Below are positions 539 to 45,848 of a stretch of DNA of 45,848 nucleotides, in pieces. Positions within the stretch are counted from its first letter, which is position 1, and every line of letters starts with the position of its first letter. Below the pieces are notes generated by a model. That model searched no databases. It was given only the letters and a program-made list of their open reading frames with translations, and was not told where the DNA came from. The DNA is from a virus. The stretch spans positions 1-45,848 of the IMG/VR virus record IMGVR_UViG_3300045922_000565. The stretch is one strand, 5' to 3'. The translations under genes and the position numbers were made by a program.

Positions 539-758
539 GGCGCTCTCCTAAATCAACAAATGTATCTTCATTTTGTTTAATATAATCCAAAGTCTGCAAA
601 TATCTTGCGCGTTCTTCTTCATTTTTAATAGCGTAAGCTTTGGATATTTCATCCCAAAAAAACTCTTGGGCGTAAGTATCGTCTTCAATAGATAGTTCAA
701 CTCCACTTAGGTAAAGCTCTACAACTTCTTTAACTGTCATTTCGGTAATATGCTTCAT
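531..758 (-). CDS. Hypothetical acidic small protein (75 aa)
   Basis: Small acidic, probably helical protein beginning MKHITEMTVKEVVELYL. Its ATG overlaps the stop of the upstream 185-residue gene (ATGA) and its stop overlaps the start of the ADP-ribosyltransferase-like gene, so it is translationally coupled inside the minus-strand operon. An AAGGGGAAA SD lies upstream. No family is recognised. The position suggests a virion accessory protein or a partner of the neighbouring large proteins, but nothing in the sequence shows a function. Confidence 0.7.
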   Translation of the reverse strand: MKHITEMTVKEVVELYLSGVELSIEDDTYAQEFFWDEISKAYAIKNEEERARYLQTLDYIKQNEDTFVDLGERHE

Positions 759-1312: not shown

Positions 1313-1318
1313 TTGTAT

Positions 1319-3991
1319 TTACTTTATATTTTTTAAATTCTTAGCAAAGTCTAAAATGGCCTTCCAGCTTTTCTTGGCGTGTCCCATAAGTTCTTTTTCT
1401 TTATTTGCAAATTCAGGGTTTGTTTTTCTCATTAAATCTCTAGTTTTGGGGTCGTGCAACATCTCATATAAGTGCGGAGCGTACTCGCTATGATGAGCTT
1501 CAGGGCTGTAGCCTACTTTAGACATGTGGATTGCTAAGTGATCTCTAATATCTGGATGGATTAGCTGATTAATTCTATCTTGAGCGTGATTGCTTATTTT
1601 GTATCCATACTTTTTGCCTAAATCGTCTAGAAGTAGATGAATTGCCTCATGTTGCCTTCTGGCTCCTGTAGGATAGTTGCCTTCTCCAGCCACCATACCG
1701 ACTGGTTTTTTGATCAAATCCCCCTGACCAACCAACCCTATGTGAGTGAATTGCTCTTTAGGCATATCATAATCAAATTTTGCTTTGGCGGCAGAAATAT
1801 TTTCATTTATTGTTTTTTCATCAAAGGGTCTTGCTGCTTGATAAAATTTCTCCTTAATAAGCGTATTATAGGGGTCGCGTTCTGAAAATACAGAATTTGC
1901 TGCAGCTTTCCGACCAAACATTTTTGCTTGTCTTTCAGTATCAATATTTTGTATTTCTTGATCGGGTCTAGATGTAACTTTAGGAAAGTTTTTAAATTCA
2001 GGCAACCCTCTCGACATTTTTTGAAGGTTGGGCTTACTTTCTTCTAAAATATCAGTCTTTTCTAAGCTTGATCTACAAATTCCATCGATCGTTTCTTCGT
2101 TACCGCAAATGATACATCTGGGGTGTCCGTTGGGGTGAGTATATTTAGCAGCTTTAAATTTGTGTTTTTTAGTCGCTTTTAGCTTTTTTTTATTTTCTTT
2201 TATTTTAAGGTTTTCAGCTTCTATTTCTTTTTCGTTCTTAATTATCCCCTGTGGGGTGTGATTTTTCTTTTTTTTAGCTTTTTGAATTTGTTCAGATTTA
2301 TTAATTTTTTCTCTGTTTGCGTAGAATTTTCGACCCTCCCCAGAAAGGATGGGGCTTGTTTCTACCTTTTTGCCCACCTTGCTTTCTATAAAATCATGAG
2401 CGGCAGAAGCTAAACCCTTTCTTCTATGGTCTTTATGGGTCAGCAAAGCTGATGCGTAAAAATCGGGTAATTGTGGGTTTCCTTTTTTACCTTCAATTTT
2501 TTCTGAAAAAAAGTATTTTCCAGCCAAATTTCCATCTTTGTCGTGAGCATAAACGGTATGGCTAATGTAATCAGGAGTAAATCTTTCGTCTATATCTTGC
2601 TTGTGTGTAAAAGTGTATCCTTCTTTCTTCCAATCGCCACGTTCACCTTTTTTCATATCCTTTAGGGTTTTTTGTTTTTTGGATTTTTTCACCCGTTCAG
2701 GTATATTTTTTGGGGTTTTACTTTCCCACTCTTCAATACCCTTTTTACCGCCAAACTTTTCGGGGTTGGCATAAGCAAACCTCCTCTGCGCCTTACTAGA
2801 GAAGGGTTTCTGCAAGTCTGCCGTTAAACTTTCTTTCTGCAAAGCCTCTCCCCCAGTTAACGTCGATGGGGCGCCTGATGGTATTCCAGCGGTGAGGGTT
2901 TTTTTAAGATTAGGTTTTTGCTTTTCATTTGCTGCTAGCTTATTATATTTAATATCCAATCCGCCGCTTTTGGCTTTTGCTTTTTCATTTATCTTTTGAT
3001 TTACATTGGAAACATCTACTTTATCGTAATATCCGTCGCTACCTTGCACATCTCTAACTGTATCCCCTCTTAAAGCTTCGTAGCTACTGTGAGGTAGTGA
3101 TAGTTTAAATGCTGTTTCTTTATCCAACAATTTATGCGGTTTTGTATGGTTGACTATAACCTCTTTTTCACGTTTTAATCTACTAGAGAGAGGTTGATGT
3201 TTTCCTTTAAATTTAACCCCTGTCTGCATGGGAATGGAGTGGATATCATCTTCAGATATATAGGCAGATATAACATGATTCCCGCTAGGGTCATTAGAAA
3301 AATTATAAGCAACGCTGTGGTCTGGAGTCCAAGAGGACATTTGAAGATCTGGAGAAGTGTGGTGTTTTGTTTGTTTGCTTTCCTCATCTACATATTTCTT
3401 ATATTCTGTAGGCCCAACCCCTCTATGTAATAGATAATGCCTTTTGCCGTTTTCATCTATTTTAACGTCTGTCATTCCCGAAAGCTTATGTAAAGCTCTA
3501 GCTCTGGCATTTCCTTCTATCCTAGGTATTTTTTTTCTATCCTCAGGAGATCCAGATCCATAAATCCAATTTGCCAATTCTTCTGGCAATTCTTGAGATT
3601 TAGGATTAAAAGGGGTTTTTCTTTGCAAGCTTCCTTTAGCCAAATCTATAGCAGCTTTTTTAAGGGCTGAACCAAGGCCCATATATGTTTTTTCTGAAGC
3701 GGCTAAAAAATCTTCTGCATTAAATTCTTTTTGCTGTTTTTTGGGTTTTTCTAGTTGCTTTTTACCCCCATCCTTAGACAGTCCAAGCATCTTATGAGCT
3801 GGAGACAAAGATTCCTGATCAAGCTGTTGCGGCTTGACATCTGGATGGTTAGGATTATACTCCATAGCCTCATAGGCGTCAGCAATAATTCTACCGTGCT
3901 CTGGATTAATTTTGACTTTGGATAGATTGTCGTCATTATTCATGATTTTTTCAACAATTTCTTCTAATTTCAATAACTTATCAAGGTTCAT
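1319..3991 (-). CDS. Polyvalent-type protein: ADP-ribosyltransferase-like, GNAT-like, Zn-knuckle and HExxH zincin domains
   Basis: 890 residues. Residues 150-300 look like a mono-ADP-ribosyltransferase: LLHRG (R190), SSWTP (S219/S220) and REKEV (E275-K-E277), in the R-S-ExE order of arginine-specific enzymes. Residues 366-389 carry a segment matching the major capsid N-terminal region (15 of 24 identical). Residues 470-565 resemble a GNAT acetyltransferase: the HRRKGLAS turn (522-529) followed by GRKFYANR. C626, C629 and C639 form a small cysteine cluster. H781-E-A-I-H785 is a zincin metallopeptidase motif, with E836 a possible third ligand. Lysine-rich linkers separate the parts. The start has an AGAGGA SD and a CAATCTTT element upstream. 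The domain set fits known phage polyvalent/internal proteins that modify host targets; catalytic activity is inferred. Confidence 0.8.
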   Translation of the reverse strand: MNLDKLLKLEEIVEKIMNNDDNLSKVKINPEHGRIIADAYEAMEYNPNHPDVKPQQLDQESLSPAHKMLGLSKDGGKKQLEKPKKQQKEFNAEDFLAASEKTYMGLGSALKKAAIDLAKGSLQRKTPFNPKSQELPEELANWIYGSGSPEDRKKIPRIEGNARARALHKLSGMTDVKIDENGKRHYLLHRGVGPTEYKKYVDEESKQTKHHTSPDLQMSSWTPDHSVAYNFSNDPSGNHVISAYISEDDIHSIPMQTGVKFKGKHQPLSSRLKREKEVIVNHTKPHKLLDKETAFKLSLPHSSYEALRGDTVRDVQGSDGYYDKVDVSNVNQKINEKAKAKSGGLDIKYNKLAANEKQKPNLKKTLTAGIPSGAPSTLTGGEALQKESLTADLQKPFSSKAQRRFAYANPEKFGGKKGIEEWESKTPKNIPERVKKSKKQKTLKDMKKGERGDWKKEGYTFTHKQDIDERFTPDYISHTVYAHDKDGNLAGKYFFSEKIEGKKGNPQLPDFYASALLTHKDHRRKGLASAAHDFIESKVGKKVETSPILSGEGRKFYANREKINKSEQIQKAKKKKNHTPQGIIKNEKEIEAENLKIKENKKKLKATKKHKFKAAKYTHPNGHPRCIICGNEETIDGICRSSLEKTDILEESKPNLQKMSRGLPEFKNFPKVTSRPDQEIQNIDTERQAKMFGRKAAANSVFSERDPYNTLIKEKFYQAARPFDEKTINENISAAKAKFDYDMPKEQFTHIGLVGQGDLIKKPVGMVAGEGNYPTGARRQHEAIHLLLDDLGKKYGYKISNHAQDRINQLIHPDIRDHLAIHMSKVGYSPEAHHSEYAPHLYEMLHDPKTRDLMRKTNPEFANKEKELMGHAKKSWKAILDFAKNLKNIK
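2825..2896 (-). other. Capsid-like APSTLT segment inside the 890-residue protein
   Basis: This encodes residues 366-389, aligned without gaps to major capsid residues 13-36 (coding bases 14484-14555). Identities include AG, APSTLT, G, ALQ, E and L, 15 of 24 in all. Codons differ at many synonymous positions, for example in APSTLT, so the match is kept at protein level and is not a recent DNA duplication. In related phages this capsid region lies near the N-terminal part removed by the prohead protease. A targeting or processing role here is inference. Confidence 0.6.
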
Positions 3992-3999
3992 AAATTCCT

Positions 4000-4017
4000 C
4001 TTATAAGTTAAAGATTG
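4000..4017 (-). promoter_or_regulatory. CAATCTTT leader element before the 890-residue gene
   Basis: Reads CAATCTTT-AACT-TATAAG on the minus strand, immediately before the AGAGGA SD. CAATCTTT lies 18 bases upstream of the ATG. The same octamer with a TATA-like hexamer four bases later occurs before the prohead protease gene and the 391-residue gene. It overlaps the end of the upstream gene. It could be a phage late promoter or a 5' leader element. Confidence 0.4.
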
Positions 4018-7000
4018 TCATATCCAAGCATTTTCTTGATTAAAGAGATATTGACGGTATCTTTTATAACATCTTGATTTTTAAGATGTTTTTTAACATA
4101 CAGAATTTCGGCTTTGATTAGGGTTGTGGCCAGTTCAATGCTCTTTTTTAAATCAATTGGATTTAGGTCATAAACGTGCCCTTGTAGCTTTTTGGGCTGT
4201 TCTAAGGGCTTGCCAAGAAGTTCGTCGTATTTGTGAGGAACAGGGGCAGATTCTACGTTATCTTTAGGCAGGCTGAGGTTTTTTGCACCAAAAACGTGTG
4301 AGATATTTTTAATATTTTCAGGAGTGTCTAATTCTATTGTATTTTTGTTTCCTATACTCCTCCAAATATTATAGTGGTTCTTGGCCATATTTAAATGGTA
4401 GTCAGAAGCACCCTTAAAAGCTGGATTTTGAGAAAAAGCGCTATAATGCTCTAAATGGTGCTTTATTGCCTGTTCATGTTTCTTTTCTCTTTCTTCAGGA
4501 GTCTCTTCCTTTCCTACTACAAAATACCTCTTACCATATTCCGTCAAGGGCATCTCTTCCATTTCGACAGGTTTAAATCCCATATTTCTAGGGACTTTTC
4601 TATAGCTGTCGTGATATACAGTATGAATCGTATCACTTCCTGTATGATTAGCCTTGCTTTCTGGGGAGTGTGTGTAAACTTTTTCGGCACCATGTTTCTT
4701 AGCGGCCTTTAAAACTGCATTTAAAAGGTTTTCTCTCCAATTTGAGTGAATTTTTTCAATTTCAGCTATATGTTTAGCTTCACTCTCCCTTCCGTTTTGT
4801 TTAAGATATTCCCTTACCGTTTTGCCGTAATCTGACTGAAGCTCACTAATCATTGGCTTTTTGGGGTTGGTAAAGTCCACTCTAGCCCACGCAATTGTGT
4901 TTTTGTTCGTTGGATGGCCGCTTCTTTGAGAGAGTTCTTGTATTTTTTGAAATGTATTATAAAGCTCAGGGTTTTTTTGCAAAGCCTTGATGCTGTCGTC
5001 AGAATGATCTAATCTAAACACAACCTCATCTTGCTTGTTTGTGTTTTGCATTTGATCTTGACCCCATTTTTTATAAGTTATGTCATACTTTGTTTTTGGA
5101 ATTTCGTCTATTTTTTTTTGTATTTCTTCCGAACTGAGCCTACCTTTATCACCAAACATCTTTTTCCAAATATCTTTCTGATTAGGGAATATTTTGTGCA
5201 AGGTTCCAATATCAATACTGCCACCCTTGGCGTCGGCATAATCCTTAGCTAGTTCATAGTGATGTTGGTTTTCGCCGTAAGAATGCTCATACTCTCTTTT
5301 AGGAATGTATTTGTCAAGAAATTTACCTTCACCACTATCCTTTATTTTTTTAATTTTAAAATTTGCAAGATCTGCAAAATTAGGAATATGTGGACGCACA
5401 TGTTCAGGAACAAAATCAGGATCTTGATGTGAATTTTCATATAGTTCCGCTACGTGGTCTTCAGCATTTTCTTCTAAATAAGATTTTCTAGCTTCTTCCA
5501 TCGCTTGTTCGTAATCAGGATGCTCATGGTAGTTTTCGTAAAGATGGTTTTCATCAGCTATGTCATAACGGTTATCTTTCCAGTGCTTGAGTCTCCAATC
5601 GTTAGCCGCCTCCTCAAATCTGTCATCATAATCAGGGTGATCAGTAATAGTTAAGGTGGGGTGATTGGCATAGTCTATTTGAGAAGGGCCTCCGTACTCG
5701 TCCAACTTATCATAGACTTTTTCCATGTCAATATAGTCTGCTTTTTTATCATAAAGTTCGGGCAGGCCTATTTCTGAAGGGTGCCTGTAGCCAGTTATTT
5801 CTTCAAATTCATCTAAATCTATCGCACGACTTCTGTCGTATTTTTGTGCCAGTTTGTCTAGGGAGTCAAAGTCAGCTTTTCCTATGTTTTGTTTTGAATT
5901 TGGATTGTCAACTTTCCAATTATATTCTTTTGCTAAATTTTCATGTATTTCATCAATATCATCATACTTAGAGCCCATTATTGTTAAAATATCATCATCA
6001 TTTAAGGTATTTAAATAATCTTCGTAAGGAAATATTGCACTAGCATGTTCGTCAATCGCTCCGTTATCGTACCCCTCTTCTATTATTTCTTGTTTAACTT
6101 CTTCGGGTAGATCTTCATGAGTGTAGATATTAAACTCTTCTTTATTTTTTTCGTTTAATTCGTCTGTGCTATATCCATGATGGTCATCATCATTCTTCCA
6201 TTTTTCAAACATCTCGACAGCATGTCTTGGGTCTATATTTTTGTTTTTGTGGTACATGTCGTATTTTTGATCAAAATCGCCATGTCTTTTAATGTGCTCA
6301 ACGTGAGAATCGTCTAAATGTTTAGATCTGGAAATTAATTTAGCTACTTTAGCGTCATAACCTTTCCCTACTCTCCAGTTATCCCAATTTTCGTCGCCAG
6401 TTTTTTCGGGGTCGTAAGCTTCACCACCAGTAATCCCTAGTTTGCTGTCAATGTAGCTCTTCCTGTCTTCTGGACTAAGTTTGTCTAAAATTTTATCCAG
6501 TTGTTCATGATGGGTAATGTAGTTTTTAAAATCAGGGTGCTCAATTATTTTTTTTGCGCTAGTTGGAGTTAAACCTTCGCTGTGCCACCTTGCTATACCA
6601 AAAAGAGCATACTGTGGAATTTTTTCAAAAATATGATCTCTAGATAGGATATGGTTAAGGAACCTTTCGCTATTTATTGCAGGACTTTTTGACTTAAGAA
6701 TTTTTTCGATATGCTCAGGATAATTTTCAGCAGCCATTAAAACATGTTTTTCTTCTAAATTTGGATTTGATAAAACATAGTTTTCAATGTTAGGAGTAAA
6801 CTCTACTTCCTTGCCCTCGCTGTCTTGTGCTGTGTATTTAGCATTATAAGGATTATCTTTACTACTTAAAATTTTGTCGTAAGTGGAGGAGGGGAGTTTT
6901 GCATATTGAAGCAATGTTTTTATTATTTCTCCCGCCCTTCTTCTTCTAGATCTCGGAGCTTTAGTATTTCTAAAAAGTTTATTTGCATGATCCAAAGCTA

Positions 7001-7322
7001 TTTGTGCAGCTTCCTCTGGAATATTTTTTTCAGAATCGTTATTAAAAAACAAATTTTCCGCATCCCTAATTGAATGATTGAAAGGGCGCTGTCCATGATC
7101 GTTTCCAGCAAGATAGGCGTATAGCTCTCTTCCCGATAAAGGTTTACCTCTTTCATTCAATATATTATGAAGTTTAGCCCCACCCCAAGCCTCCATGACA
7201 CGCCTATCTACTGGAGCTTTTTTCTTGATTTTTAAATTACGATTAGCTTCGAGAGTGTCACCCTCTAATTTAGGATGTTCTTGTTTAAATAAATTTTTAA
7301 GTACACTTTTTGATCTCATCAT
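4008..7322 (-). CDS. Giant polyvalent-type protein with ELQSD domain (1104 aa)
   Basis: 1104 residues, rich in His, Asp and Lys. Residues about 770-930 hold a domain frequent in phage and mobile-element polyvalent proteins: IAWARVDF, ISELQSD (825-831), then a helix NLLNAVLKAAKKHGAEKVYT, the counterpart of the E(I/L)QSD domain. Its biochemical function is not established. Residues about 190-310 contain degenerate helical repeats (NPNLEEKHVLMAAENYPEHI), faintly like the LRV repeats at 42-45 kb. A long acidic, Tyr/Asp/His-rich middle has no recognised fold. ATGA overlap with the 391-residue gene upstream indicates co-translation. It is probably an internal or accessory virion protein made with the head genes; this rests on position and domain company only. 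Confidence 0.75.
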   Translation of the reverse strand: MMRSKSVLKNLFKQEHPKLEGDTLEANRNLKIKKKAPVDRRVMEAWGGAKLHNILNERGKPLSGRELYAYLAGNDHGQRPFNHSIRDAENLFFNNDSEKNIPEEAAQIALDHANKLFRNTKAPRSRRRRAGEIIKTLLQYAKLPSSTYDKILSSKDNPYNAKYTAQDSEGKEVEFTPNIENYVLSNPNLEEKHVLMAAENYPEHIEKILKSKSPAINSERFLNHILSRDHIFEKIPQYALFGIARWHSEGLTPTSAKKIIEHPDFKNYITHHEQLDKILDKLSPEDRKSYIDSKLGITGGEAYDPEKTGDENWDNWRVGKGYDAKVAKLISRSKHLDDSHVEHIKRHGDFDQKYDMYHKNKNIDPRHAVEMFEKWKNDDDHHGYSTDELNEKNKEEFNIYTHEDLPEEVKQEIIEEGYDNGAIDEHASAIFPYEDYLNTLNDDDILTIMGSKYDDIDEIHENLAKEYNWKVDNPNSKQNIGKADFDSLDKLAQKYDRSRAIDLDEFEEITGYRHPSEIGLPELYDKKADYIDMEKVYDKLDEYGGPSQIDYANHPTLTITDHPDYDDRFEEAANDWRLKHWKDNRYDIADENHLYENYHEHPDYEQAMEEARKSYLEENAEDHVAELYENSHQDPDFVPEHVRPHIPNFADLANFKIKKIKDSGEGKFLDKYIPKREYEHSYGENQHHYELAKDYADAKGGSIDIGTLHKIFPNQKDIWKKMFGDKGRLSSEEIQKKIDEIPKTKYDITYKKWGQDQMQNTNKQDEVVFRLDHSDDSIKALQKNPELYNTFQKIQELSQRSGHPTNKNTIAWARVDFTNPKKPMISELQSDYGKTVREYLKQNGRESEAKHIAEIEKIHSNWRENLLNAVLKAAKKHGAEKVYTHSPESKANHTGSDTIHTVYHDSYRKVPRNMGFKPVEMEEMPLTEYGKRYFVVGKEETPEEREKKHEQAIKHHLEHYSAFSQNPAFKGASDYHLNMAKNHYNIWRSIGNKNTIELDTPENIKNISHVFGAKNLSLPKDNVESAPVPHKYDELLGKPLEQPKKLQGHVYDLNPIDLKKSIELATTLIKAEILYVKKHLKNQDVIKDTVNISLIKKMLGYDNL

Positions 7323-8494
7323 TTTTTACCTAGATCATAAGCCAAATTAGCCAAAAAGTTTGGATCGTGATGCCCAAATTCTTGTGCGTATTGTTTTGCT
7401 GATTGCTGCAAATTGTCCATTTTATGTCTGTCGATAGCGCTAGTCTGTTTAAAATCTTCAGGATGTAACTGATGTTTTTCATAAACTGGCATGGGATAGA
7501 ACATAGCTATAACGTCAGGTAGGCTACTTTTGCTATTAAAAAACCCATGATACCCTCTGTTTTTAAGCTCTTCATGAATATCGTCGTTAGTAACCGCCCC
7601 ACGGTTAATTTGTCTTTTATCAGCTTTAGCTTTTGCTGCTGCCCTTACACCTTCAGTGTCTTCCCCCAAATCGTACAATCTATGTCCATGATCTAGTTTT
7701 GTTACATATTTGGCTTTTGCGCCAGTCGTAACAACCTCTTCTGGCTTAGCGCCCTCTCTGTAGAAAAAAGCAAGCTTATGTTCAGGTGCGCCACGCTTAG
7801 CTTCCATTCCGATATTTCTTTTACCATGAAAAGAGGGGGATATTTCTTGCAAATTTTCTTCAGGACTGTAATGAACAAGGTTAATCTCTTGTCCAGTATG
7901 TTCTGATTTTCTAATATTATTAGGTATATAAACTCTTTTTTTTATTTCACTTTTAAAAAGCTTTTCCTGTCTAAAATGCTGCCTCAGAATAGATTTGTCT
8001 TGTGGGTACAAATTTTTAAAATCTAAGGAATGGGCAAACATTGTGCCATCTTCCATAGTAGAGAAGTTGTCTTGAGGAGCTACTATAGGTATAGACGTTC
8101 CATGACCTTTATGATGTTTTCCCTCGTTTTCTCCGTTGACATAATGATATTCATGCCCGCCATTTCCATCAGAATAGATAACGCTCTCTTGCCCTGTCAT
8201 CTTGGCAAGGCCCATTAAAGCTTTTACAGCCGCGGGGGATGGGTTCTCTACCATTATGGAATTTTCAATTTTGCCGTCGTATTTTCCCTTAAGAGGATGC
8301 ACCTTAAAGCCTTTAGCCCTAAGATCGTTGATCGTATCTTCATGCGTGGTTTGATGCGAAACCTCAAATTTGGGGTTTTCAACACTAAAAAGGAAGTGCG
8401 GCTTTTTATTGTAAAGCGGGTGGTCATTTTCGTTTTTGTAAAGAGATGAAAATTGCTTTTCTTTTATTAATTTAAGTATTTTTTTGTGTATCAT
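7319..8494 (-). CDS. Two-domain protein: DUF3293-like plus ART-PolyVal-like region (391 aa)
   Basis: Residues 34-125 resemble DUF3293 (FSVENPKF, a predicted strand-helix core, then SIMVENPSPAAVKALMGLAK and SVIYSDG). Residues 203-340 resemble a domain common in phage polyvalent proteins: LVHYSPEENLQEI, SFHGKRNIGMEAKRGAPEHK, LAFFYREG, and a closing NRGYHGFF and VIAMFYPMPVYE. This is compatible with an ADP-ribosyltransferase-like fold, but no full catalytic triad can be named. It is the first gene of the minus-strand giant-protein operon and overlaps the next one by ATGA. No SD precedes the ATG, but a TGGTATATT box and a CAATCTTT element lie within 45 bases upstream. Function is unknown; domain calls are from memory of family patterns. 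Confidence 0.7.
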   Translation of the reverse strand: MIHKKILKLIKEKQFSSLYKNENDHPLYNKKPHFLFSVENPKFEVSHQTTHEDTINDLRAKGFKVHPLKGKYDGKIENSIMVENPSPAAVKALMGLAKMTGQESVIYSDGNGGHEYHYVNGENEGKHHKGHGTSIPIVAPQDNFSTMEDGTMFAHSLDFKNLYPQDKSILRQHFRQEKLFKSEIKKRVYIPNNIRKSEHTGQEINLVHYSPEENLQEISPSFHGKRNIGMEAKRGAPEHKLAFFYREGAKPEEVVTTGAKAKYVTKLDHGHRLYDLGEDTEGVRAAAKAKADKRQINRGAVTNDDIHEELKNRGYHGFFNSKSSLPDVIAMFYPMPVYEKHQLHPEDFKQTSAIDRHKMDNLQQSAKQYAQEFGHHDPNFLANLAYDLGKK

Positions 8495-38804: not shown

Positions 38805-38954
38805 CTATTGCCTCCTTAAAGCAAAATAAAGACTGCCCAAAAATATGGCAGTGGTTAAATACAGGATAACAGGATAATTAGAAAAAACCCATGCGAGCAT
38901 AATCAAAAAACATATACTAGAAACCAAAGTTAATAAAGCTGATATAAAAGCCAT
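38805..38954 (-). CDS. Small membrane protein (49 aa)
   Basis: Begins at the TAATG overlap with the nucleotidyltransferase-like gene. Two transmembrane helices: ISALLTLVSSICFLIMLAWV and VILYLTTAIFLGSLYFALRR. The basic C-terminus suggests a cytoplasmic end. Unrecognised, but hairpin membrane proteins of this kind are common phage small products. Confidence 0.6.
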   Translation of the reverse strand: MAFISALLTLVSSICFLIMLAWVFSNYPVILYLTTAIFLGSLYFALRRQ

Positions 38955-39586
38955 TAATCAACTCCAAAGAATCTAACGCTGCCATTAGGGTAGAATTGTA
39001 GGGTATTTTCAGAGGGGTTGTTAAGGTCTATCCCGTTTAAAGATTTGGCTATTTCTAGCAATGTACCATTACATGCTACATAACCTCTCTGGATGTATTT
39101 TTGCATACGCTCCAATGTGGACAAAGGAAATGTTATCTTGTTGATTCGTAAGTGCCTGCTTAATGTATCTTGGAAAAATGTTGTGCTAGCGTCAAATTCA
39201 ACCCCACCGACTTTTAAACCCTCTTCTGTCACGCTTACGTTCGTGAAAACAACAGCTTGGCAAATTGTAAAGTCGAAAGACTCAATTAGTTCCTGCGGCA
39301 TCGTAAAGTGTCTGCCTTTGATAACCTGAAACCAACGCTCTTTATAGGTATAGTTGGCAATCTGATCGTTTTCGTTTATAAGCTTGCCTTTTTCCTTAAA
39401 AAACTTGATTAGCTCATCCTCCGACTGCTTGTTAGTGGTGAACATGTCGATATCCTTGATCTCTGCGTTGGACAAATAGTCTCTGATGGCACCCCCAGCG
39501 ATAAAGACATTGGGACGAAGAGTTTCGGGAAGTTCCTCAAGGATAAGTTTTTGATAGTGATATTTAAGTTTGTCAACGTTTTTCAT
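38954..39586 (-). CDS. Nucleotidyltransferase-like protein (tRNA NTase head-type fold)
   Basis: The ATG at 39586 follows GGAG by four bases; the upstream in-frame start lies in the promoter -10. FIAGGAIRDYLSNAEIKDID, with GG-x-x-RD (31-36) and D45-I-D47, is the nucleotidyltransferase head-domain signature of CCA-adding/polyA polymerases. SFDFTICQAVVF (about 110-120) supplies a further acidic residue and matches phage relatives. At 210 residues it has only the head and part of the neck, so it lacks the tail of true CCA enzymes. It may add nucleotides to RNA, or to a toxin-type target; no tRNA genes are visible in the window. Confidence 0.75.
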   Translation of the reverse strand: MKNVDKLKYHYQKLILEELPETLRPNVFIAGGAIRDYLSNAEIKDIDMFTTNKQSEDELIKFFKEKGKLINENDQIANYTYKERWFQVIKGRHFTMPQELIESFDFTICQAVVFTNVSVTEEGLKVGGVEFDASTTFFQDTLSRHLRINKITFPLSTLERMQKYIQRGYVACNGTLLEIAKSLNGIDLNNPSENTLQFYPNGSVRFFGVD

Positions 39587-39603
39587 AAAACTCCTTTTTA
39601 AAT

Positions 39604-39632
39604 CTTTTATCATGAATACTAAATCGTGTCAA
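39604..39632 (-). promoter_or_regulatory. Promoter for the nucleotidyltransferase-like operon
   Basis: Minus strand TTGACA (39632-39627), 17-base spacer, TAAAAG preceded by TGA (extended -10). It lies 18 bases upstream of the chosen ATG. Confidence 0.65.
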
Positions 39633-39637
39633 CACCA

Positions 39638-39648
39638 TGGTATATATT
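39638..39648 (+). promoter_or_regulatory. Extended -10 box TGGTATATATT
   Basis: TGG followed by TATATATT, on the plus strand, divergent from and just upstream of the minus promoter at 39604-39632. No clear -35 is present. It precedes two hairpins and a terminator with no ORF between them. Confidence 0.4.
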
Positions 39649-39654
39649 ATTGTG

Positions 39655-39730
39655 ACAATACCCTGCCTCCTTTGGGTATTTTCGCTTCTACCCCCCCCTA
39701 AAGGCCCCTTAATTGGGGCTTTTCTTTTTT
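39655..39730 (+). ncRNA. Possible small RNA: two hairpins ending in a terminator
   Basis: AATACCC-TGCCTCCTTT-GGGTATT (39657-39680) is a hairpin whose loop holds CCTCCTT, identical to the anti-SD of 16S rRNA. A C-rich linker follows, then AAAGGCCCC with GGGGCTTTT (39700-39723) and a T-run. No ORF lies between the TGGTATATATT box and the terminator, so a transcript of about 80 bases is possible. Alternatively this is just a terminator cluster for read-through. Confidence 0.35.
39700..39730 (+). terminator. Rho-independent terminator
   Basis: Stem GCCCC/GGGGC extended by AAAG and TTTT, six-base loop, then TTTCTTTTTT. It isolates the block on the left from the TGGTATATT promoter at 39741. Confidence 0.75.
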
Positions 39731-39740
39731 TCTAAAACCG

Positions 39741-39749
39741 TGGTATATT
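39741..39749 (+). promoter_or_regulatory. Extended -10 box TGGTATATT
   Basis: TGGTATATT, 45 bases before the ATG of the 80-residue gene and immediately after the terminator. Identical to the box at 24261-24269. Confidence 0.5.
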
Positions 39750-39793
39750 GAAATATAAATGAGTTGCAATTAAAAACACACTGGAATAGACAA

Positions 39794-40036
39794 ATGACAT
39801 TTACACTTTATAAATGGCGAAATAAAAAGAATGAGTCTGAATTTAACAGCCCTGTCCTTTATTTAAGGAATGGGGTTGCAGTTGAGTTTTGGGGGTTTGG
39901 GTTTGAGTTTTCTTTTAACAAACTACACATTACCTTGTCTTTGTTCTCGCCCAACGCTATGTATGAAGCACAGTTTATTTTTAACAAAAAATATAACACA
40001 TTTAAAGATAATATTTTGTTTGAGAAAACTTGGTAA
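39794..40036 (+). CDS. Hypothetical protein (80 aa)
   Basis: The ATG at 39794 is chosen; an in-frame TTG ten codons earlier lacks an SD. Predicted beta protein: MTFTLYKWRNKKNESEFN, VLYLRNGVAVEFWGFGFEFS and KLHITLSLFSPNAMYEAQF. No family is recognised. It is the first gene after the promoter at 39741. Confidence 0.6.
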   Translation: MTFTLYKWRNKKNESEFNSPVLYLRNGVAVEFWGFGFEFSFNKLHITLSLFSPNAMYEAQFIFNKKYNTFKDNILFEKTW

Positions 40037-40043
40037 ATATAAA

Positions 40044-40245
40044 CACACCCTTATTTCTATCCCGAGTGTTAGGATGTAGGGTTGGAAAGGCGACCGATAG
40101 CCGAAATGTTTCTAGAGCATTAAGTCGGTGACAGTTGTGGAGAGACACATTACTTACCTGTAGCTATATGCTACTGGTGTTCCTTAGGTGCTCTGGCTTG
40201 CGGGACGGAGTTAAATGGCTCAGATAAGAGCAGCAGCCTATTTAT
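40044..40245 (+). ncRNA. Possibly structured non-coding region before the 123-residue gene
   Basis: No open frame above 30 codons. Inverted repeats visible by eye: ACCGA (40093) with TCGGT (40125); TGTG with CACA (40136-40149); a strong hairpin ACCTGTAGC-TATAT-GCTACTGGT (40156-40178) with one T-T mismatch; TGCTCT (40189) with AGAGCA (40227); and GCTC-AGATAA-GAGC (40218-40231). This nested arrangement with GC content above its neighbours suggests an RNA element, either independent or a 5' leader. It does not match any riboswitch, tmRNA or tRNA signature I can recognise, and no T-arm is present. Confidence 0.4.
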
Positions 40246-40266
40246 TTTTATAAGGGGCCACACAAA

Positions 40267-40638
40267 ATGAAAAAAACATACGAAATCATTGTTGATGACG
40301 CATACTTCAATGAGCCAGAAGACTACCTCAAATACCTAATGTGTGAAAATCTAATTGTTGTAAACAATGGCTGGTGGAACAAGGAATGGCCTAAAGATAA
40401 AATAACACTCTCCGTTATATGCAACGACGTTTTTGCTTGGGGGTGTTCGGATGCTGAGGACATAAATTATTCTGATTTAGAACCTTTAGCCAAAGCTCAC
40501 CTCAAAGACCCCACTTGGGGCGTAGTTGCTTGGTGCATTAAAAAAAGAAAACAAATGCCTCAAAAACCAATTGTTGTCAAAATGACAGAAGCAGGCTATA
40601 ATCTAGAAGAGTTAATTGGCGAAGAAGGGGGAGGGTAA
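40267..40638 (+). CDS. Conserved phage hypothetical protein (123 aa)
   Basis: SD AAGGGG, 11 bases upstream. The protein has an acidic N-terminus (YEIIVDDAYFNEPEDYLKYL), a Trp-rich core (VVNNGWWNKEWPKDKITLSV, then FAWGCSDAEDINYSDLEPLA), and VVAWCIKKRKQMPQKPIVVK near the end. Such Trp-rich small proteins are common in large phages without known function. It is the first gene after the possible structured RNA. Confidence 0.7.
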   Translation: MKKTYEIIVDDAYFNEPEDYLKYLMCENLIVVNNGWWNKEWPKDKITLSVICNDVFAWGCSDAEDINYSDLEPLAKAHLKDPTWGVVAWCIKKRKQMPQKPIVVKMTEAGYNLEELIGEEGGG

Positions 40639-40639
40639 A

Positions 40640-40942
40640 ATGAAAAATAAACAAAACCACAAAATTTCTCTTTTAGAGCTGGTAACTGGCACAGTGATTA
40701 TTGCTGCTAAATATATTAGAGATTTGTTATCTGTTTTAGGAGCGTGTTACGTGCTTCCACTTATTATATGTCGTCTTGCCTACTATTTTGGCTTTTTGCC
40801 ATTTATTAATGATGCGGATTTTTTTAAAGCTGTATCCGTTACCCCACTCCTTAACATTGGAGGGGCTGTGTACATAGTTGTTGCAGCCATTTTAGCATTG
40901 CCATTTGTAGTTATAGAGTGGTTGGTAAATTTAATTTATTGA
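40640..40942 (+). CDS. Small multi-span membrane protein (100 aa)
   Basis: The ATG at 40640 follows GGGAGGG; the longer in-frame start upstream lies inside the previous gene. Three hydrophobic segments: LELVTGTVIIAAKYIRDLLS, VLPLIICRLAYYFGFLPF, and AVYIVVAAILALPFVVIEWL. A basic N-terminus suggests an inside orientation. No family is recognised. It is coupled with the next membrane gene, possibly a pair acting at the host envelope. Confidence 0.7.
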   Translation: MKNKQNHKISLLELVTGTVIIAAKYIRDLLSVLGACYVLPLIICRLAYYFGFLPFINDADFFKAVSVTPLLNIGGAVYIVVAAILALPFVVIEWLVNLIY

Positions 40943-40966
40943 GATAGGTTGAGGAGACAAACACAA

Positions 40967-41140
40967 ATGACAAGTAAGAAAATGCTCGGATCTCTATTAC
41001 TACTGACGGTATTTGTGATTGTATTTCTTTATTTGATATGGTTGCGTGGAATTTGGATCGCTCTAGGTTGCGCTGGTGTCACAATTCTGACCACCGATCT
41101 TATTATGATTGCAATTGATATGTTGACGGAGAAAAAGTGA
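40967..41140 (+). CDS. Small membrane protein (57 aa)
   Basis: The ATG at 40967 lies 10 bases after AGGAG; an in-frame TTG six codons earlier is less likely. Two transmembrane helices: MLGSLLLLTVFVIVFLYLIW and IALGCAGVTILTTDLIMIAI. The stop overlaps the GTG of the next gene. Unrecognised. Confidence 0.65.
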   Translation: MTSKKMLGSLLLLTVFVIVFLYLIWLRGIWIALGCAGVTILTTDLIMIAIDMLTEKK

Positions 41141-41349
41141 TTCAAAATACTTATAAAAGAATCGTAAAAGACGGTAAATTTTGTATTGAATATTTTGAAA
41201 CGCATATCGGTAAGAGTAGGATTATTTTTGAATCCAAAAGTGAGATAGAGACGATGCGTAGATATAAGAGATTGAAGGAGCTGGAAGAGTACGAAAATAG
41301 TTTGTGGGATGAGTTTTTTGTAAAACAAGAGGAAAATGAAGAATGGTAA
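41137..41349 (+). CDS. Hypothetical protein with GTG start (70 aa)
   Basis: GTG overlaps the previous stop (GTGA), with a GGAG SD. Basic beta start (IQNTYKRIVKDGKFCIEYFE), then a charged helix (EIETMRRYKRLKELEEYENS). No family is recognised; likely a small cytosolic protein. A GTG start is otherwise rare in this window. Confidence 0.6.
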   Translation: MIQNTYKRIVKDGKFCIEYFETHIGKSRIIFESKSEIETMRRYKRLKELEEYENSLWDEFFVKQEENEEW

Positions 41350-41417
41350 AATTTATAGTGAATTATATATCAAGCGACGATAGAATAAAAGAGCCGACTT
41401 GAAACAAGGAGAACAAA

Positions 41418-41582
41418 ATGAGTGAAGTGCTTTATTCCCCCAAACACAATGAGATTTTTATATTCACAGGATGCTTTAGCTACGACGATAAAAAGAAAAC
41501 CATGACTTTGTATGTTTTCTCGGGCAAAAAAGGTTATGCCACTATTAAGGCTAAAGACCTCGTTCATATAGGATGGCTATAA
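41418..41582 (+). CDS. Small hypothetical protein (54 aa)
   Basis: SD AAGGAG seven bases before the ATG. MSEVLYSPKHNEIFIFTG, then YDDKKKTMTLYVFSGKKGYA and a C-terminal VHIGWL: a compact beta protein. It overlaps the 121-residue gene by ten bases, so it was missed by length cut-offs but is supported by SD and packing. Unrecognised. Confidence 0.6.
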   Translation: MSEVLYSPKHNEIFIFTGCFSYDDKKKTMTLYVFSGKKGYATIKAKDLVHIGWL

Positions 41583-41938
41583 GCCAGACAAAAGAACAAA
41601 CGATTGACGATTGGGATAGCATGGAAACACCAGACAAGTGGGTAATTTTAAAATTAAACAGCAACGGCAAAACCCTCTTTAAGGTACTGGCTGGGTGGTC
41701 GGGTTCTTATTTAAAGGGGCAGAGCTGGAGGATTAATAGCGGGATTGTTAAGGTAGAGTCTAACGACGACCACTATTTGTTTTATGGTCATTCTGGCTCT
41801 GTTTACAAATGCAGAAAAACATGTTATGGTATGAATGCGATTATGTCAAGCATTGCAGCTAATTTTGAAGGCAATCCTGACATAAAGATCATGGCTGAAC
41901 AAGATTTCAGTAATTTGATGGGGGCGGTAGATGGGTAA
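41573..41938 (+). CDS. Conserved phage hypothetical protein (121 aa)
   Basis: The ATG lies inside the end of the 54-residue gene. DDWDSMETPDKWVILKLNSN, then KTLFKVLAGWSGSYLKGQSW and YLFYGHSGSVYKCRKTCYGM give a beta-barrel-like core. Similar small proteins are common in large phages, function unknown. Ends by overlapping the ATG of the LRV-repeat protein at 41931. Confidence 0.7.
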   Translation: MAISQTKEQTIDDWDSMETPDKWVILKLNSNGKTLFKVLAGWSGSYLKGQSWRINSGIVKVESNDDHYLFYGHSGSVYKCRKTCYGMNAIMSSIAANFEGNPDIKIMAEQDFSNLMGAVDG

Positions 41939-42779
41939 AGATAACGGCTATTCTGATAGCAAAACAGACTCACAAGGCTCTAGGATCAAAGAGCTTGAAA
42001 CGGAAAATCAACAGCTTAAGCAAATTATTAAGGAAACATTGCCGTTAGCTAGAGAATACGCTCACAAGAGATCCACATTTGCACCTACAATCGTTAATGA
42101 AGCCATTGATAAAGCATTAAAGCTTGGTGTAAATTTATGGAATGGACTGGCTCCCAAGTACGCTGATGACGGTGACTTTGGCAAATGGAACCCAATCGTT
42201 GGAAAGTTCGTGGAAAAAAAATGGGTTGAAAATCAACCTGTCGATGTCCGCATAGATATGGCTTCTAATCCTAACCTTGATCCAAAACTCCAAGAAACGC
42301 TGGTTGGAGATAAGAATTGGCGTGTTCGTGAAGCGATAGCTTATAACCCTAACCTTGATCCTAAATACTTTGAAAGATTGGTTGGGGATAAAAAGAGCAA
42401 TGTTCGTGTAGCAATAGCCTCTAACCCAAACCTAGACCCAAAACTTCACGAAAGATTAGTTGGAGATAAGGATTGGGGTGTTCGTATATCAATTGCCCGT
42501 GCCCTTAACCTTGACCCAAAATTCTATGAGAGATTGGTTAGAGATAAGGATTGGGGTGTTCGTAGAACAATAGCCTCTAACCCAAACCTTGACCCTAAAT
42601 ATTACGAAAGGTTGGTTGGGGATGAGAATTGGGGTGTTCGCGCAGGAATAGCTTCTAACCCTAACCTTGATCCTAAATACTTTGAAATATTGCTTAAAGA
42701 TAGTGATCCAGCCGTTCGTATAACAATAAAAAAGAATCCTAGTTATATTAAATTTGCCAATTTAAAAAATAAAGGTTAG
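41931..42779 (+). CDS. LRV/HEAT-like repeat protein with coiled-coil N-terminus (282 aa)
   Basis: Residues 20-36 form a short coiled coil (IKELETENQQLKQIIKETL), with a helical linker to residue 112. Residues 113-268 are six exact-length 26-residue repeats, consensus NPNLDPKxxERLVGDxxWxV followed by RxAIAS, then a cap NPSYIK. The pattern resembles the leucine-rich-repeat-variant (LRV) family, an alpha-superhelix of protein-protein interaction type, though LRV units are typically 24 residues. The same repeats recur in the genes at 42804 and 45233. Partner unknown. Confidence 0.8.
   Translation: MGKDNGYSDSKTDSQGSRIKELETENQQLKQIIKETLPLAREYAHKRSTFAPTIVNEAIDKALKLGVNLWNGLAPKYADDGDFGKWNPIVGKFVEKKWVENQPVDVRIDMASNPNLDPKLQETLVGDKNWRVREAIAYNPNLDPKYFERLVGDKKSNVRVAIASNPNLDPKLHERLVGDKDWGVRISIARALNLDPKFYERLVRDKDWGVRRTIASNPNLDPKYYERLVGDENWGVRAGIASNPNLDPKYFEILLKDSDPAVRITIKKNPSYIKFANLKNKG
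42267..42734 (+). repeat. 78-bp LRV-coding tandem repeats (6 units)
   Basis: Six in-frame 78-base units with high nucleotide similarity, for example around the AACCCNAACCTTGA segment that opens each unit. The array could recombine with the similar arrays at 43605-44384 and 45341-45496. Confidence 0.8.
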
Positions 42780-42803
42780 AATTAGAAACATATATTAAAT
42801 TTT

Positions 42804-44636
42804 ATGGTAAATTTAACTAAAAAACATCAAGAACACATTAATTGGGCCAAAAAACTTCCTAACTCTAATTGGCAACTTTGGGCAACAAGACACTTTAAAA
42901 ATAAACCAGAAGATTTTACACCAGAAATAAAACAAAAAATTGAACATTATGCTGGAAGTTTTCATATCCCAGAAATTTCAAAGGTTCGTTTTGAAAAACA
43001 TCATAATTTGCATTTTGGCCTCCAAATGCTTGAAAATGCTGAAAAACAGTACAACGATAGAATAAAAAATAACTTAAATATTTTAAAACCTACTCCCGAA
43101 ACCATTAAGTTCGTACAAGGAGTCGAAAAACCAAATAGACATTGGTTTAACTTAAGTAAAAGTTCTTGTGTGGACGAAGGAAAAGCGATGGGACATTGCG
43201 GAAATGTTCCTTTAAAAGTTAAAGGGGATGAAATATTGTCTTTTAGAACTGAACATAAAATTGGGGATAAAACCTATCATGAACCTCACCTAACATTTAT
43301 TTATAATCAAGGTTTTCTTGGTGAAATGAAAGGTAGAGGAAATGAAAAACCAGCCAAACATTATCACCGTGAAATCGCTAACTTATTAAAAGATCCTAGG
43401 ATTAAGGGTGTGATGGGCGGAGGATACGAACACAAAAATAATTTTCATTTCACTGATTTATCTCCAGAATTACAACAGGAGGTTTTAAAAGCAAATCCAA
43501 ACCTAATTACTATGGATGACAGTGATGAGGATTTGCATAGAATTTTGTATGGAAATGTTATTTTTCCAGAAAAATATAAAGATATTTTAAAAGCAATTGC
43601 TTTTAATCCAAATTTAGATCCAAAACATCATGAAAGATTGGTTGAAGATAGTAGAGTGTATGTTCGTGAAGCAATAGCCTCTAACTCCAATCTTGACCCG
43701 AAATTCTATGAAAGATTGGTTAATGATAAACACTGGGCTGTTCGTATAGCAATTGCTCGTAACCCAAATTTAGACCCAAAACATTATGAAAGGTTGGTTG
43801 ATGATAAGGATTCGGATGTTCGTAAAACAATAGCTTCTAACCCCAACCTTGATCCAGAATTCCATGAAAGATTGGTTAATGATGAAGTTTGGAATGTTCG
43901 CGCAGCAACAGCTCTTAACCCCAACCTTAACCCCAAATTCCATGAAAGATTGGTTGAGGATAAAGAGGATAGTGTTCGTCAAGCAATAGCTTCTAACTCA
44001 AACTTAGACCCAAAACTCCAAGAAAAATTAGTTGGGGATGAAAATAAATATGTTCGAGCAATAATGGCTCTTAACTCAAACTTAGACCCAAAATTCCATG
44101 AAAGATTGGTTGAAGATAAAAAGGAAAATGTTCGTGCAGCAATAGCTTCTAACCCAAATCTGGATCTAAAATTTCATGAAAGGTTGGTTAATGATGAGGA
44201 TTGGAATGTTCGCACAGCAATAGCTTTTAACCCCAACATTGATCCAAAATTATATGAAAGGTTGATTGAGGATGGTGATTGGAGTATTCGTTCAGCAATA
44301 GCCTCTAACCCTAACCTTGATCCTAAATACTTTGAAAGATTGCTTAAAGATAGCGAGCCAATTGTTCGCCAAGAGATAAAAAATAATCCTAGTTATATTA
44401 AATGGAAAAAGGAGTGGAAAATGACTAAAGAAGAATTTGCAGAAAAGGTTTTAAAAAGTCCAAAAAATACTGTTTTTGTTAATACAGATCAGGTGTTGAA
44501 TGCTATTGAGGTTTTTACTGATCTTGGCATGCTACCCCCTTTGACTAGAGCTTTGCCTGAAGATTTCTCAAATACAGGGTTTGACCAAGATTTTTTAGAT
44601 GAACATGAGTTTCAAGTTAATAGGTGGGAGGAATAA
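42804..44636 (+). CDS. GHCGN-domain (PcfJ-like) plus 10 LRV repeats (610 aa)
   Basis: Residues 1-267 contain a domain with HWFNLSKSSCVDEGKAMGHC, then GN (129-134), ILSFRTEHK, HEPHLTFIYNQGFLGEMKGR and GNEKPAKHYH. The His-Cys pair followed by strand, Glu/Gln and a GxxN end recalls the PcfJ-like module of phages and plasmids, whose role is unknown. Residues 268-527 are ten 26-residue LRV repeats with the NPSYIK cap, and a helical C-terminus (MTKEEFAEKVLKSPKNTVFV) follows. No SD precedes the ATG, in very AT-rich DNA. A catalytic domain tethered to an LRV scaffold is likely, by inference. Confidence 0.75.
   Translation: MVNLTKKHQEHINWAKKLPNSNWQLWATRHFKNKPEDFTPEIKQKIEHYAGSFHIPEISKVRFEKHHNLHFGLQMLENAEKQYNDRIKNNLNILKPTPETIKFVQGVEKPNRHWFNLSKSSCVDEGKAMGHCGNVPLKVKGDEILSFRTEHKIGDKTYHEPHLTFIYNQGFLGEMKGRGNEKPAKHYHREIANLLKDPRIKGVMGGGYEHKNNFHFTDLSPELQQEVLKANPNLITMDDSDEDLHRILYGNVIFPEKYKDILKAIAFNPNLDPKHHERLVEDSRVYVREAIASNSNLDPKFYERLVNDKHWAVRIAIARNPNLDPKHYERLVDDKDSDVRKTIASNPNLDPEFHERLVNDEVWNVRAATALNPNLNPKFHERLVEDKEDSVRQAIASNSNLDPKLQEKLVGDENKYVRAIMALNSNLDPKFHERLVEDKKENVRAAIASNPNLDLKFHERLVNDEDWNVRTAIAFNPNIDPKLYERLIEDGDWSIRSAIASNPNLDPKYFERLLKDSEPIVRQEIKNNPSYIKWKKEWKMTKEEFAEKVLKSPKNTVFVNTDQVLNAIEVFTDLGMLPPLTRALPEDFSNTGFDQDFLDEHEFQVNRWEE
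43605..44384 (+). repeat. 78-bp LRV-coding tandem repeats (10 units)
   Basis: Ten in-frame 78-base units, more divergent at the start of the array than at the end. The last unit plus the following cap is nearly identical to the end of the 45233 gene, which shows recent copying between these loci. Confidence 0.8.
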
Positions 44637-44989
44637 TGAAATATTACGATAAAACCAAAAGAAAGCCCACGGCTTTAGTCGTGGGAGCTGTCAGGAAATT
44701 GTTCTTTGCAAAACTATGGGAATTTATTTTTGGGTATGATCATCGAAGATGGTTCCCAGAGAAATGGGACTTATCTGAAGTTTTTATTTGGAAAGAATAT
44801 GGTAAAAACGAAGGATTCGTGAGATATTATAAAAGCTCAGACAGATATTTAAAATTTGTCAACGGTGTTGACATTAAATTTTACGAAAATACTTTTAAAG
44901 TAAAATATATCGTCGGATATACTAGGACTGGAATCTGTAGTATCGGGGTTAATAAAAATAGATTAATGGGACTCGTACATGACAAATAA
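44636..44989 (+). CDS. Hypothetical protein carrying an IS605-like hairpin in its 5' end (117 aa)
   Basis: The ATG at 44636 is in a TAATG overlap with the LRV gene, with a GGGAGG SD. Codons 5-17 are provided by the 40-base hairpin repeat (44648-44687). The rest (RKLFFAKLWEFIFGYDHRRW, then YYKSSDRYLKFVNGVDIKFY) is unrecognised and basic/aromatic. The hairpin insertion keeps the frame open here, while in the second copy it introduces a stop. The protein may be a domesticated or disrupted gene. Confidence 0.6.
   Translation: MKYYDKTKRKPTALVVGAVRKLFFAKLWEFIFGYDHRRWFPEKWDLSEVFIWKEYGKNEGFVRYYKSSDRYLKFVNGVDIKFYENTFKVKYIVGYTRTGICSIGVNKNRLMGLVHDK
44648..44687 (+). repeat. Exact 40-base repeat with IS200/IS605-like hairpin (copy 1)
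   Basis: CCCACGGC-TTTA-GTCGTGGG (44666-44685): eight-pair stem with one G-T wobble and a TTTA loop, preceded by AAAACCAAAAGAAAG. Hairpins of this form mark the ends of IS200/IS605-family elements, where they are bound by TnpA and overlap the omega-RNA scaffold. No tnpA or tnpB is present. Confidence 0.7.
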
Positions 44990-45128
44990 AAAGTTAATTA
45001 TAAACTCCTTTTCGGAATGTCCTCATTTTGATAATGAATATTGGCATTATAGTCAAATATGTGAAAAGTTAAATAAAGAAAACAAGCAATATCTTAAGAT
45101 AAAACCAAAAGAAAGCCCACGGCTTTAG
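44979..45128 (+). CDS. Small protein ending in the hairpin repeat (49 aa)
   Basis: ATG inside the end of the preceding gene with GGGA upstream. MTNKKLIINSFSECPHFDNE, then YWHYSQICEKLNKENKQY, and finally IKPKESPRL read from the second hairpin copy, whose TAG in the loop region gives the stop. The natural gene end may have been replaced by the hairpin insertion. No family is recognised. Confidence 0.45.
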   Translation: MTNKKLIINSFSECPHFDNEYWHYSQICEKLNKENKQYLKIKPKESPRL

Positions 45129-45137
45129 TCGTGGGAG
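45098..45137 (+). repeat. Exact 40-base repeat with IS200/IS605-like hairpin (copy 2)
   Basis: Identical over 40 bases to 44648-44687, including hairpin and flanks; the sequences diverge just outside. Its 3' arm includes GTGGGAG, which could act as SD for the ATG at 45145. Confidence 0.7.
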
Positions 45138-45138
45138 T

Positions 45139-45255
45139 ATGTCAATGATTTGTTTTGAGATTGACTTAAACGGGGAACGGTTGTATAAAAGAATAAAGAT
45201 TGAAAACCCAAATACAAAAGTGGAGATTGTTAATGAAACCATACGCAAGTCTTAA
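45139..45255 (+). CDS. Small protein after the hairpin (38 aa)
   Basis: Two possible starts (45139 or, with better SD spacing from the hairpin GGGAG, 45145). Sequence MSMICFEIDLNGERLYKRIK, then IENPNTKVEIVNETIRKS. Its 3' end overlaps the start of the chimeric gene at 45233. Weakly supported; might be the remnant of a larger gene. Confidence 0.4.
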   Translation: MSMICFEIDLNGERLYKRIKIENPNTKVEIVNETIRKS

Positions 45256-45288
45256 CATTGAAACAGCAGGCCTAAATTCAAAATCACA
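45233..45288 (+). repeat. Partial duplication of the exonuclease 5' end
   Basis: 50 of 56 bases identical to 45578-45633. Divergence begins directly after CAAAATCACA, at a short stretch (CCAAAA) also present in the LRV units, suggesting a microhomology junction. Confidence 0.85.
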
Positions 45289-45541
45289 TGAAAGGTTGGT
45301 TAATGATGAGTCATGGCATGTTCGTAAAGCAATAGCCTCTAACCCCAATCTTGACCCGAAATTCTATGAAAGGTTGGTTGGGGATGAGGATTTGGATGTT
45401 CGTAAAGAAATAGCCTCTAACCCTAACCTAGACCCTAAATACTTTGAAAGATTGCTTGAAGATAGCGAGCCAATTGTGCATAGAGCAATAAAAAATAACC
45501 CTAGTTATATTAAATGGAAAGAGGGGCAGAAAAATAACTAA
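45233..45541 (+). CDS. Chimeric gene: duplicated exonuclease 5' end fused to LRV repeats (102 aa)
   Basis: ATG with GTGGAG SD. Residues 1-18, MKPYASLNIETAGLNSKS, copy the start of the exonuclease at 45578 (MKPYVSLDIETTGLNPKS); the first 56 bases match at 50 of 56 positions. After the shared K-S position the sequence switches to HERLVNDESWHVRKAIAS and two full LRV units plus the NPSYIK cap, nearly identical to the end of the 610-residue gene. The exonuclease DxE is NIE here, so the copied part is catalytically dead. A longer in-frame start at 45200 lacks an SD. Whether the product is functional is unknown. Confidence 0.75.
   Translation: MKPYASLNIETAGLNSKSHERLVNDESWHVRKAIASNPNLDPKFYERLVGDEDLDVRKEIASNPNLDPKYFERLLEDSEPIVHRAIKNNPSYIKWKEGQKNN
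45341..45496 (+). repeat. 78-bp LRV-coding repeats (2 units) in the chimeric gene
   Basis: Two complete 78-base units plus a partial one before them, closest to the last units of the array at 43605-44384. Confidence 0.8.
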
Positions 45542-45577
45542 GGCTTTGCCTAAATACATTTTATCAGGAGAAATTTG

Positions 45578-45848
45578 ATGAAACCTTACGTAAGTCTTGA
45601 CATTGAAACAACAGGCCTAAACCCAAAATCACAAATACTTCAGATTGCTATGGTCTATGATGACCTTAAAACGCCAATCGATCAGCTACCAACATTTAAC
45701 AAAAAGATTTTTTACGAATCATTCTCACATGCCGAACCATACGCTCTCATGATGAATGCTAAATTGATTCAGGAAATGTCAAAGGGTTACGGTAAGCTCG
45801 GAGACGATTGGATTCATAGCGAATATGCAATTGGCTATGTTATTGATT
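45578..45848 (+). CDS. DnaQ-like 3'-5' exonuclease, N-terminal part (cut by window end)
   Basis: ATG with AGGAG SD. SLDIETTGLNPKSQILQIAM is motif Exo I (D-x-E) of the DEDD exonuclease superfamily, with catalytic Asp and Glu. The following segment (PTFNKKIFYESFSHAEPYAL, then MMNAKLIQEM) resembles phage and oligoribonuclease-type DEDD relatives. It would trim DNA or RNA 3' ends; the later Exo II and III motifs lie outside the window. It is the intact parent of the duplicated fragment at 45233. Confidence 0.8.
   Translation, partial: MKPYVSLDIETTGLNPKSQILQIAMVYDDLKTPIDQLPTFNKKIFYESFSHAEPYALMMNAKLIQEMSKGYGKLGDDWIHSEYAIGYVID

Follow-up and report, generated by a model that had tools for sequence, protein, structure and literature searches.

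In S. aureus, the fusion gene nusG'-'sigH arose by duplication of 1210 bp flanked by an 8-bp repeat, with both parent genes left intact, and it was shown by experiment that the sigH fusion is driven by the start of the downstream gene (PMC3486894). In this case, as in rplK'-'sigH, the start, the ribosome-binding site and the first codons of a downstream gene are fused in frame to a part of an upstream gene at a short repeat, and intact parents lie on both sides (PMC3486894). Other bacterial fusion genes are born by deletion, which creates new open frames from joined gene fragments (Kaul et al., PMC12803068).

Here, we analysed a stretch of phage DNA of 45,848 nucleotides (hereafter the window; IMG/VR virus record IMGVR_UViG_3300045922_000565, positions 1-45,848) that contains a chimeric ORF with the same layout as the S. 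aureus fusions. The S. aureus duplication was observed directly, is reversible and is expressed, as seen by Western blot (PMC3486894), whereas that of the phage is inferred, would be old enough to have diverged, and would have been trimmed by deletion. The locus also resembles the fusions of Kaul et al. (PMC12803068) in that a structural change joins gene fragments into a new open frame, but here a duplication would have made the fusion and a deletion would only have trimmed its surroundings.

An exonuclease start joined to LRV repeats

The ORF at 45233-45541 runs from an ATG to a TAA stop and codes for 102 aa, in which the start of a DEDDh-type exonuclease is joined to LRV repeats (Table 1). 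The first-pass annotation had recognised a 56-base match to the exonuclease start, and this match stands, with 50/56 identical bases between 45233-45288 and 45578-45633 and an abrupt loss of similarity at base 56. When the ribosome-binding region is included, BLAST gives an E-value of ~5e-15 (45567-45633 against the related contig L009, see below). The open frame, the Shine-Dalgarno-like GGAG (7 bases 5' of the ATG) and the loss of the catalytic Asp that had been reported are likewise all present, codon 8 being AAC for GAC, which gives NIE where the exonuclease has DIE.

The match to LRV units starts at about base 48 and is in frame, so that the exonuclease and LRV similarities overlap by ~9 bases around CAAAATCACA. 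This overlap represents the junction, in agreement with the short-homology junction that had been proposed. When three exonuclease versions are compared with three LRV arrays, the longest word that they share exactly always falls within exonuclease bases 39-52, at the junction, with a length of 12-14 bp for the exonuclease of L009 and of 9-10 bp for those of the window and of L011. Since words of 9-10 bp are common in shuffled sequences, the evidence lies in the position of the word and not in its length.

Concerning the LRV part, the first-pass annotation had pointed to the end of the 610-aa gene as its source. This is indeed the best DNA match (44168-44428, 84%) and the nearest relative of the last unit. 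However, the first unit is closer to a canonical LRV gene unit of another contig (50/54 to L017:7126, versus 46/54 to the 610-aa gene), so that the source is uncertain or was altered by later conversion.

Table 1. Features of the chimeric locus and its surroundings, in coordinates of the window
Feature	Position	Strand	Remarks
LRV array of 282-aa gene	42244..42730	+	Also enriched in window/L009 differences
LRV array of 610-aa gene	43591..44400	+	Best match for chimera tail
MTKEEF module	44421..44636	+	Joined to LRV frame here; separate from LRV in L011
Hairpin-containing segment, first copy	44641..44687	+	
Hairpin-containing segment, second copy	45091..45137	+	Single copy in L011
Probable original exonuclease leader, now 5' of chimera	45140..45232	+	4/93 bases differ from L011; mini-ORF 45145-45255 overlaps start codon
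Chimeric ORF	45233..45541	+	102 aa: exonuclease start, two LRV repeats and LRV C-terminal cap; counterpart L009:6283-6591
Exonuclease-derived segment	45233..45288	+	50/56 identity to 45578-45633; residues 1-13 predicted disordered
Junction interval	45277..45288	+	Corresponds to the longest exact word (9-14 bp, around CCTAGACCCAAAAT) that the exonuclease gene has in common with each of the LRV arrays compared
LRV-derived segment	45280..45541	+	78-bp units and C-terminal cap; ends in cap and stop ATAACTAA (window) or ATGACTAA (L009; first bases of MTKEEF gene)
Likely MTKEEF gene fragment from putative second copy	45542..45551	+	GGCTTTGCCT; score reached by 6/2000 shuffles (window), 2/2000 (L009)
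Shortened leader of probably displaced exonuclease	45549..45577	+	Weak similarity to original leader; contains AGGAG
DEDDh-type exonuclease gene	45578..45848	+	Cut by window end; 191 aa in L009

Related contigs and the reality of the junction

The same ORF, junction and spacer are found in L009 (IMGVR_UViG_3300044941_000368), which is 98.3% identical to the window over 38944-45848 (6.9 kb). A second contig from the same metagenome, L017 (3300044941_000300), is 99.8% identical to window positions 1-5620, which indicates that these sequences probably come from one phage population. Positions 1-538 (minus strand) hold the 5' portion of a large gene with LRV repeats that continues in L017. Elsewhere in the window, a 391-aa ORF (7319-8494, minus strand) matches the Pfam family S-AdoMet_lyase (PF23780) above cut-off, a family with a role in counter-defence in phages.

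Mis-joined reads of related phages might in principle have produced the junction or the LRV patches described below, all the more since contig ends in this population have sequence in common (127-bp shared ends; 103-bp overlap) and LRV repeats are difficult to assemble. However, two separate contigs have almost the same junction and spacer in spite of differences close by, which argues against a chance mis-join, and we consider an assembly artefact or strain mixture very improbable as the source of the chimera. The assembly chimera that the first-pass annotation had envisaged is thus not borne out at the contig level, L009 having the same junction. The LRV patches alone could nevertheless reflect strain mixture in the assembly. 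The 127-base stretch at 38944-39070, exactly common to the ends of contigs _000368 and _000421, is probably an overlap that the assembler left at a point of rearrangement.

Probable position of the original start and age of the fusion

Contig _000421 (L011) represents the site without insertion: a single copy of the hairpin segment is followed by the mini-ORF, GGAGA, and then the exonuclease start. Since the same leader that lies 5' of the chimera in the window is followed immediately by the exonuclease in L011, 45233 would be the original start position and the working exonuclease at 45578 is probably a displaced copy, the reverse of the earlier reading of the DNA at 45233 as the copied part. 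L011 is not surely ancestral, because it contains the remnant of an LRV cap as well as an inverted arrangement; it may be derived, and a deletion between the two start copies would yield the same empty-looking site. Our exonuclease search recovered only two viral contigs, both of one metagenome, and so no outgroup to settle the direction; the same search in genome contigs gave no relative, and a DNA search with the 4-kb region had no match among 50,697 phage records. Exonuclease and MTKEEF are both absent from the large LRV-bearing contigs, which are therefore unusable as an outgroup for the junction.

A spacer of 36 bases separates the chimera from the exonuclease, and its last 29 bases weakly resemble the original leader. 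In comparisons anchored at the start codon, ~1% of shuffles or of window 29-mers reach the score obtained against L011, and 3-4% of shuffles are as good as the match to the leader of the chimera; by local alignment alone the similarity is not significant (586/2000 shuffles). Similarity between the two starts may extend weakly 5' of them (~1-4% of shuffles as good). A promoter scan gave sites no more numerous than in shuffles, and no Rfam match was found above gathering score.

The two start copies differ at 6/56 bases in the window and at 8/56 in L009, whereas between contigs the exonuclease starts show only 2-4/56 differences, and the window and L009 have the same sequence in the exonuclease-derived part of the chimera. 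This indicates that the fusion predates the split between the two and is not newborn, contrary to what had been suggested, although its age could be exaggerated by faster change in the freed copy. The substitutions D to N, T to A and P to S, which only the chimera copy carries, hit residues common to all three exonucleases, as expected after loss of exonuclease function.

A proposed short-junction tandem duplication followed by deletion

The last 33 bases of the chimera match L011:172-204 at 32/33 positions in the window and 33/33 in L009. In L011, the matching stretch consists of LRV-cap DNA that continues into ATGACTAA, the apparent start of a separate MTKEEF gene, and the L009 chimera ends with AATGACTAA. 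Directly 3' of the chimera, GGCTTTGCCT matches an internal stretch of the MTKEEF gene. A tandem copy running from the LRV tail into MTKEEF, followed by an internal deletion, would account for both the MTKEEF-like end and the fragment in the spacer.

The 610-aa gene itself apparently consists of an LRV gene plus the MTKEEF gene. At 44397-44429 the boundary measures 33 rather than 34 bases, and this net one-base length difference with respect to L011 joins the two frames. Such a frame fusion is a closer analogue of the cases of Kaul et al. (PMC12803068) than the chimera is.

We propose, with a probability of about two thirds, that a short-junction tandem duplication, later trimmed by deletion, gave rise to the chimera at its junction. 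The ancestral order would have been LRV gene, MTKEEF gene, leader with mini-ORF, and exonuclease. A word of 9-14 bp occurs both in codons 13-18 of the exonuclease and in an LRV unit, and recombination or slippage between these two sites would have duplicated everything from the tail of the LRV gene to the start of the exonuclease (~0.7 kb without and 1.1 kb with the 450-bp hairpin insert, as estimated from coordinates), fusing the first exonuclease start in frame to the LRV tail and leaving an intact exonuclease downstream. The second MTKEEF copy and most of its leader would then have been deleted, giving rise to the 36-base spacer. Translation of the resulting ORF would start from the ribosome-binding site that originally served the exonuclease, and the LRV part of the chimera appears to exchange sequence with other LRV arrays.

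As in short-junction tandem-duplication chimeras, a downstream start is fused in frame to an upstream part, a short direct repeat lies at the junction, and intact parents flank the chimera, namely the 610-aa LRV gene on the 5' side and the exonuclease on the 3' side (seen at full length in L009). A full second copy of the intervening DNA is absent 3' of the chimera, where only fragments occur, and we accordingly class the chimera as a trimmed derivative rather than an intact example. The duplication step, the later deletion and the order of events are what we infer from this arrangement, the deletion from ~10-20 bases and the weak leader match.

The main rival is a double template switch within one replication event, whereby the exonuclease start would have been copied up to a jump at short homology into an LRV array, followed by copying to the LRV end and a jump back 5' of the exonuclease start. 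Such an event would yield the same final order with no separate deletion, and the first junction does have short homology, but extra jumps through MTKEEF-like and leader-like DNA would be needed, while the spacer fragment and the MTKEEF-like end follow naturally from a tandem copy. We therefore regard it as unlikely. Of the origin by partial duplication and template switching put forward in the first-pass annotation, the short-homology chimera is retained, whereas template switching as such is not supported: the LRV-cap/MTKEEF end, the MTKEEF fragment in the spacer and the insertion-free site favour a short-junction tandem duplication and subsequent deletion.

Hairpins and a second insert

The locus contains a second insert of similar layout (44639-45137), in which an ORF starting at 44639 begins with 51 bases of a mini-ORF of L011 (MKYYDKTKRKPTALVVG) and a hairpin copy then follows at 45091-45137; no source was found for the inserted 44688-45090. 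The hairpin AAAGCCCACGGCTTTAGTCGTGGGAG, at 44666-44685 and 45116-45135, has similar counterparts in plasmids of haloarchaea and Finegoldia, most of them without annotation, and we take it to resemble the end hairpins of IS200/IS605 elements.

The LRV part might have been inserted into the exonuclease start as a mobile cassette with target duplication, perhaps in connection with these hairpins. The insert 44688-45090 between the hairpin copies likewise reuses a downstream ORF start, and LRV arrays occur in several contexts. However, no transposase was recognised among the proteins scanned (part of the ORFs), the putative cassette has no fixed ends, and the hairpins lie away from the LRV junction. 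A duplication of at least 56 bases is moreover unlike IS200/IS605 elements, which are not known to make target duplications, and a cassette origin appears highly improbable.

Possible sequence exchange among LRV arrays

Divergence between the window and L009 is 9.8% of sites in the LRV part of the chimera, 5.1% in the LRV array of the 282-aa gene and 0.37% in that of the 610-aa gene, against a background of 1.15% over 38944-42243 and 0% over 44401-45280. Moreover, the last unit of the chimera matches the 610-aa gene at 77/78 positions in L009 and at 68/78 in the window. At the sequence level, these patchy differences suggest gene conversion with other LRV arrays. A broader and rather improbable scenario is that the LRV arrays of this phage serve as a recombination hub, sharing short words with other genes, capturing new starts and exchanging patches, so that LRV proteins with different N-termini would keep arising and some would be kept as functional adaptors.

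Predicted protein and possible role

The repeat part of the chimera matches the Pfam LRV model (PF01816) with 28.1 bits (cut-off 21.6), as LRV proteins do (PF01816; 1LRV), but the chimera has only about two repeats and a cap, an unrelated disordered N-terminus and no head domain. In related phages, by comparison, LRV arrays are part of large multidomain proteins and follow a conserved head domain, which we did not find in genome contigs. Our literature search found no publication naming LRV together with phage. The structure model has a mean pLDDT of 82.9, with values below 50 for residues 1-13 and helices from residue 16. Its best PDB matches are HEAT-like solenoids, none with E <= 0.001, and the profile of the 610-aa family has 1LRV as its sole PDB match by sequence (E 5.7e-05). 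The product is predicted to be a small LRV solenoid, its exonuclease-derived tail being disordered.

With DEDDh exonucleases (phrog_192, DNA polymerase exonuclease subunit), the chimera shares the first 18-19 codons, but it lacks the rest of the domain, which stops after ~19 residues, as well as the first catalytic Asp (NIE for DIE). Judging from these residues, exonuclease activity is not expected.

The most likely reading is that the chimera is tolerated as a by-product and may be expressed. Recruitment as a putative working small LRV protein under selection, for example as a competitor or adaptor for larger LRV proteins, would be compatible with the duplication origin. The open frame has been kept although 22/102 codons are not the same in the two contigs (13 silent differences), the solenoid is predicted to fold, and a ribosome-binding site is present. 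Yet gene conversion with coding LRV arrays as donors would likewise introduce open sequence rich in silent changes, and we hold a selected function to be doubtful and less likely than a tolerated by-product.

Significance

The locus provides a clear example, in an uncultured phage, of a route to gene fusion for which there are bacterial precedents, and leaves knowledge of gene birth unchanged. A fusion gene has formed here without the loss of either parent, and the junction, a related junction-free locus and the diverged copies can all be read within the phage population. LRV arrays may represent hot spots of sequence exchange.
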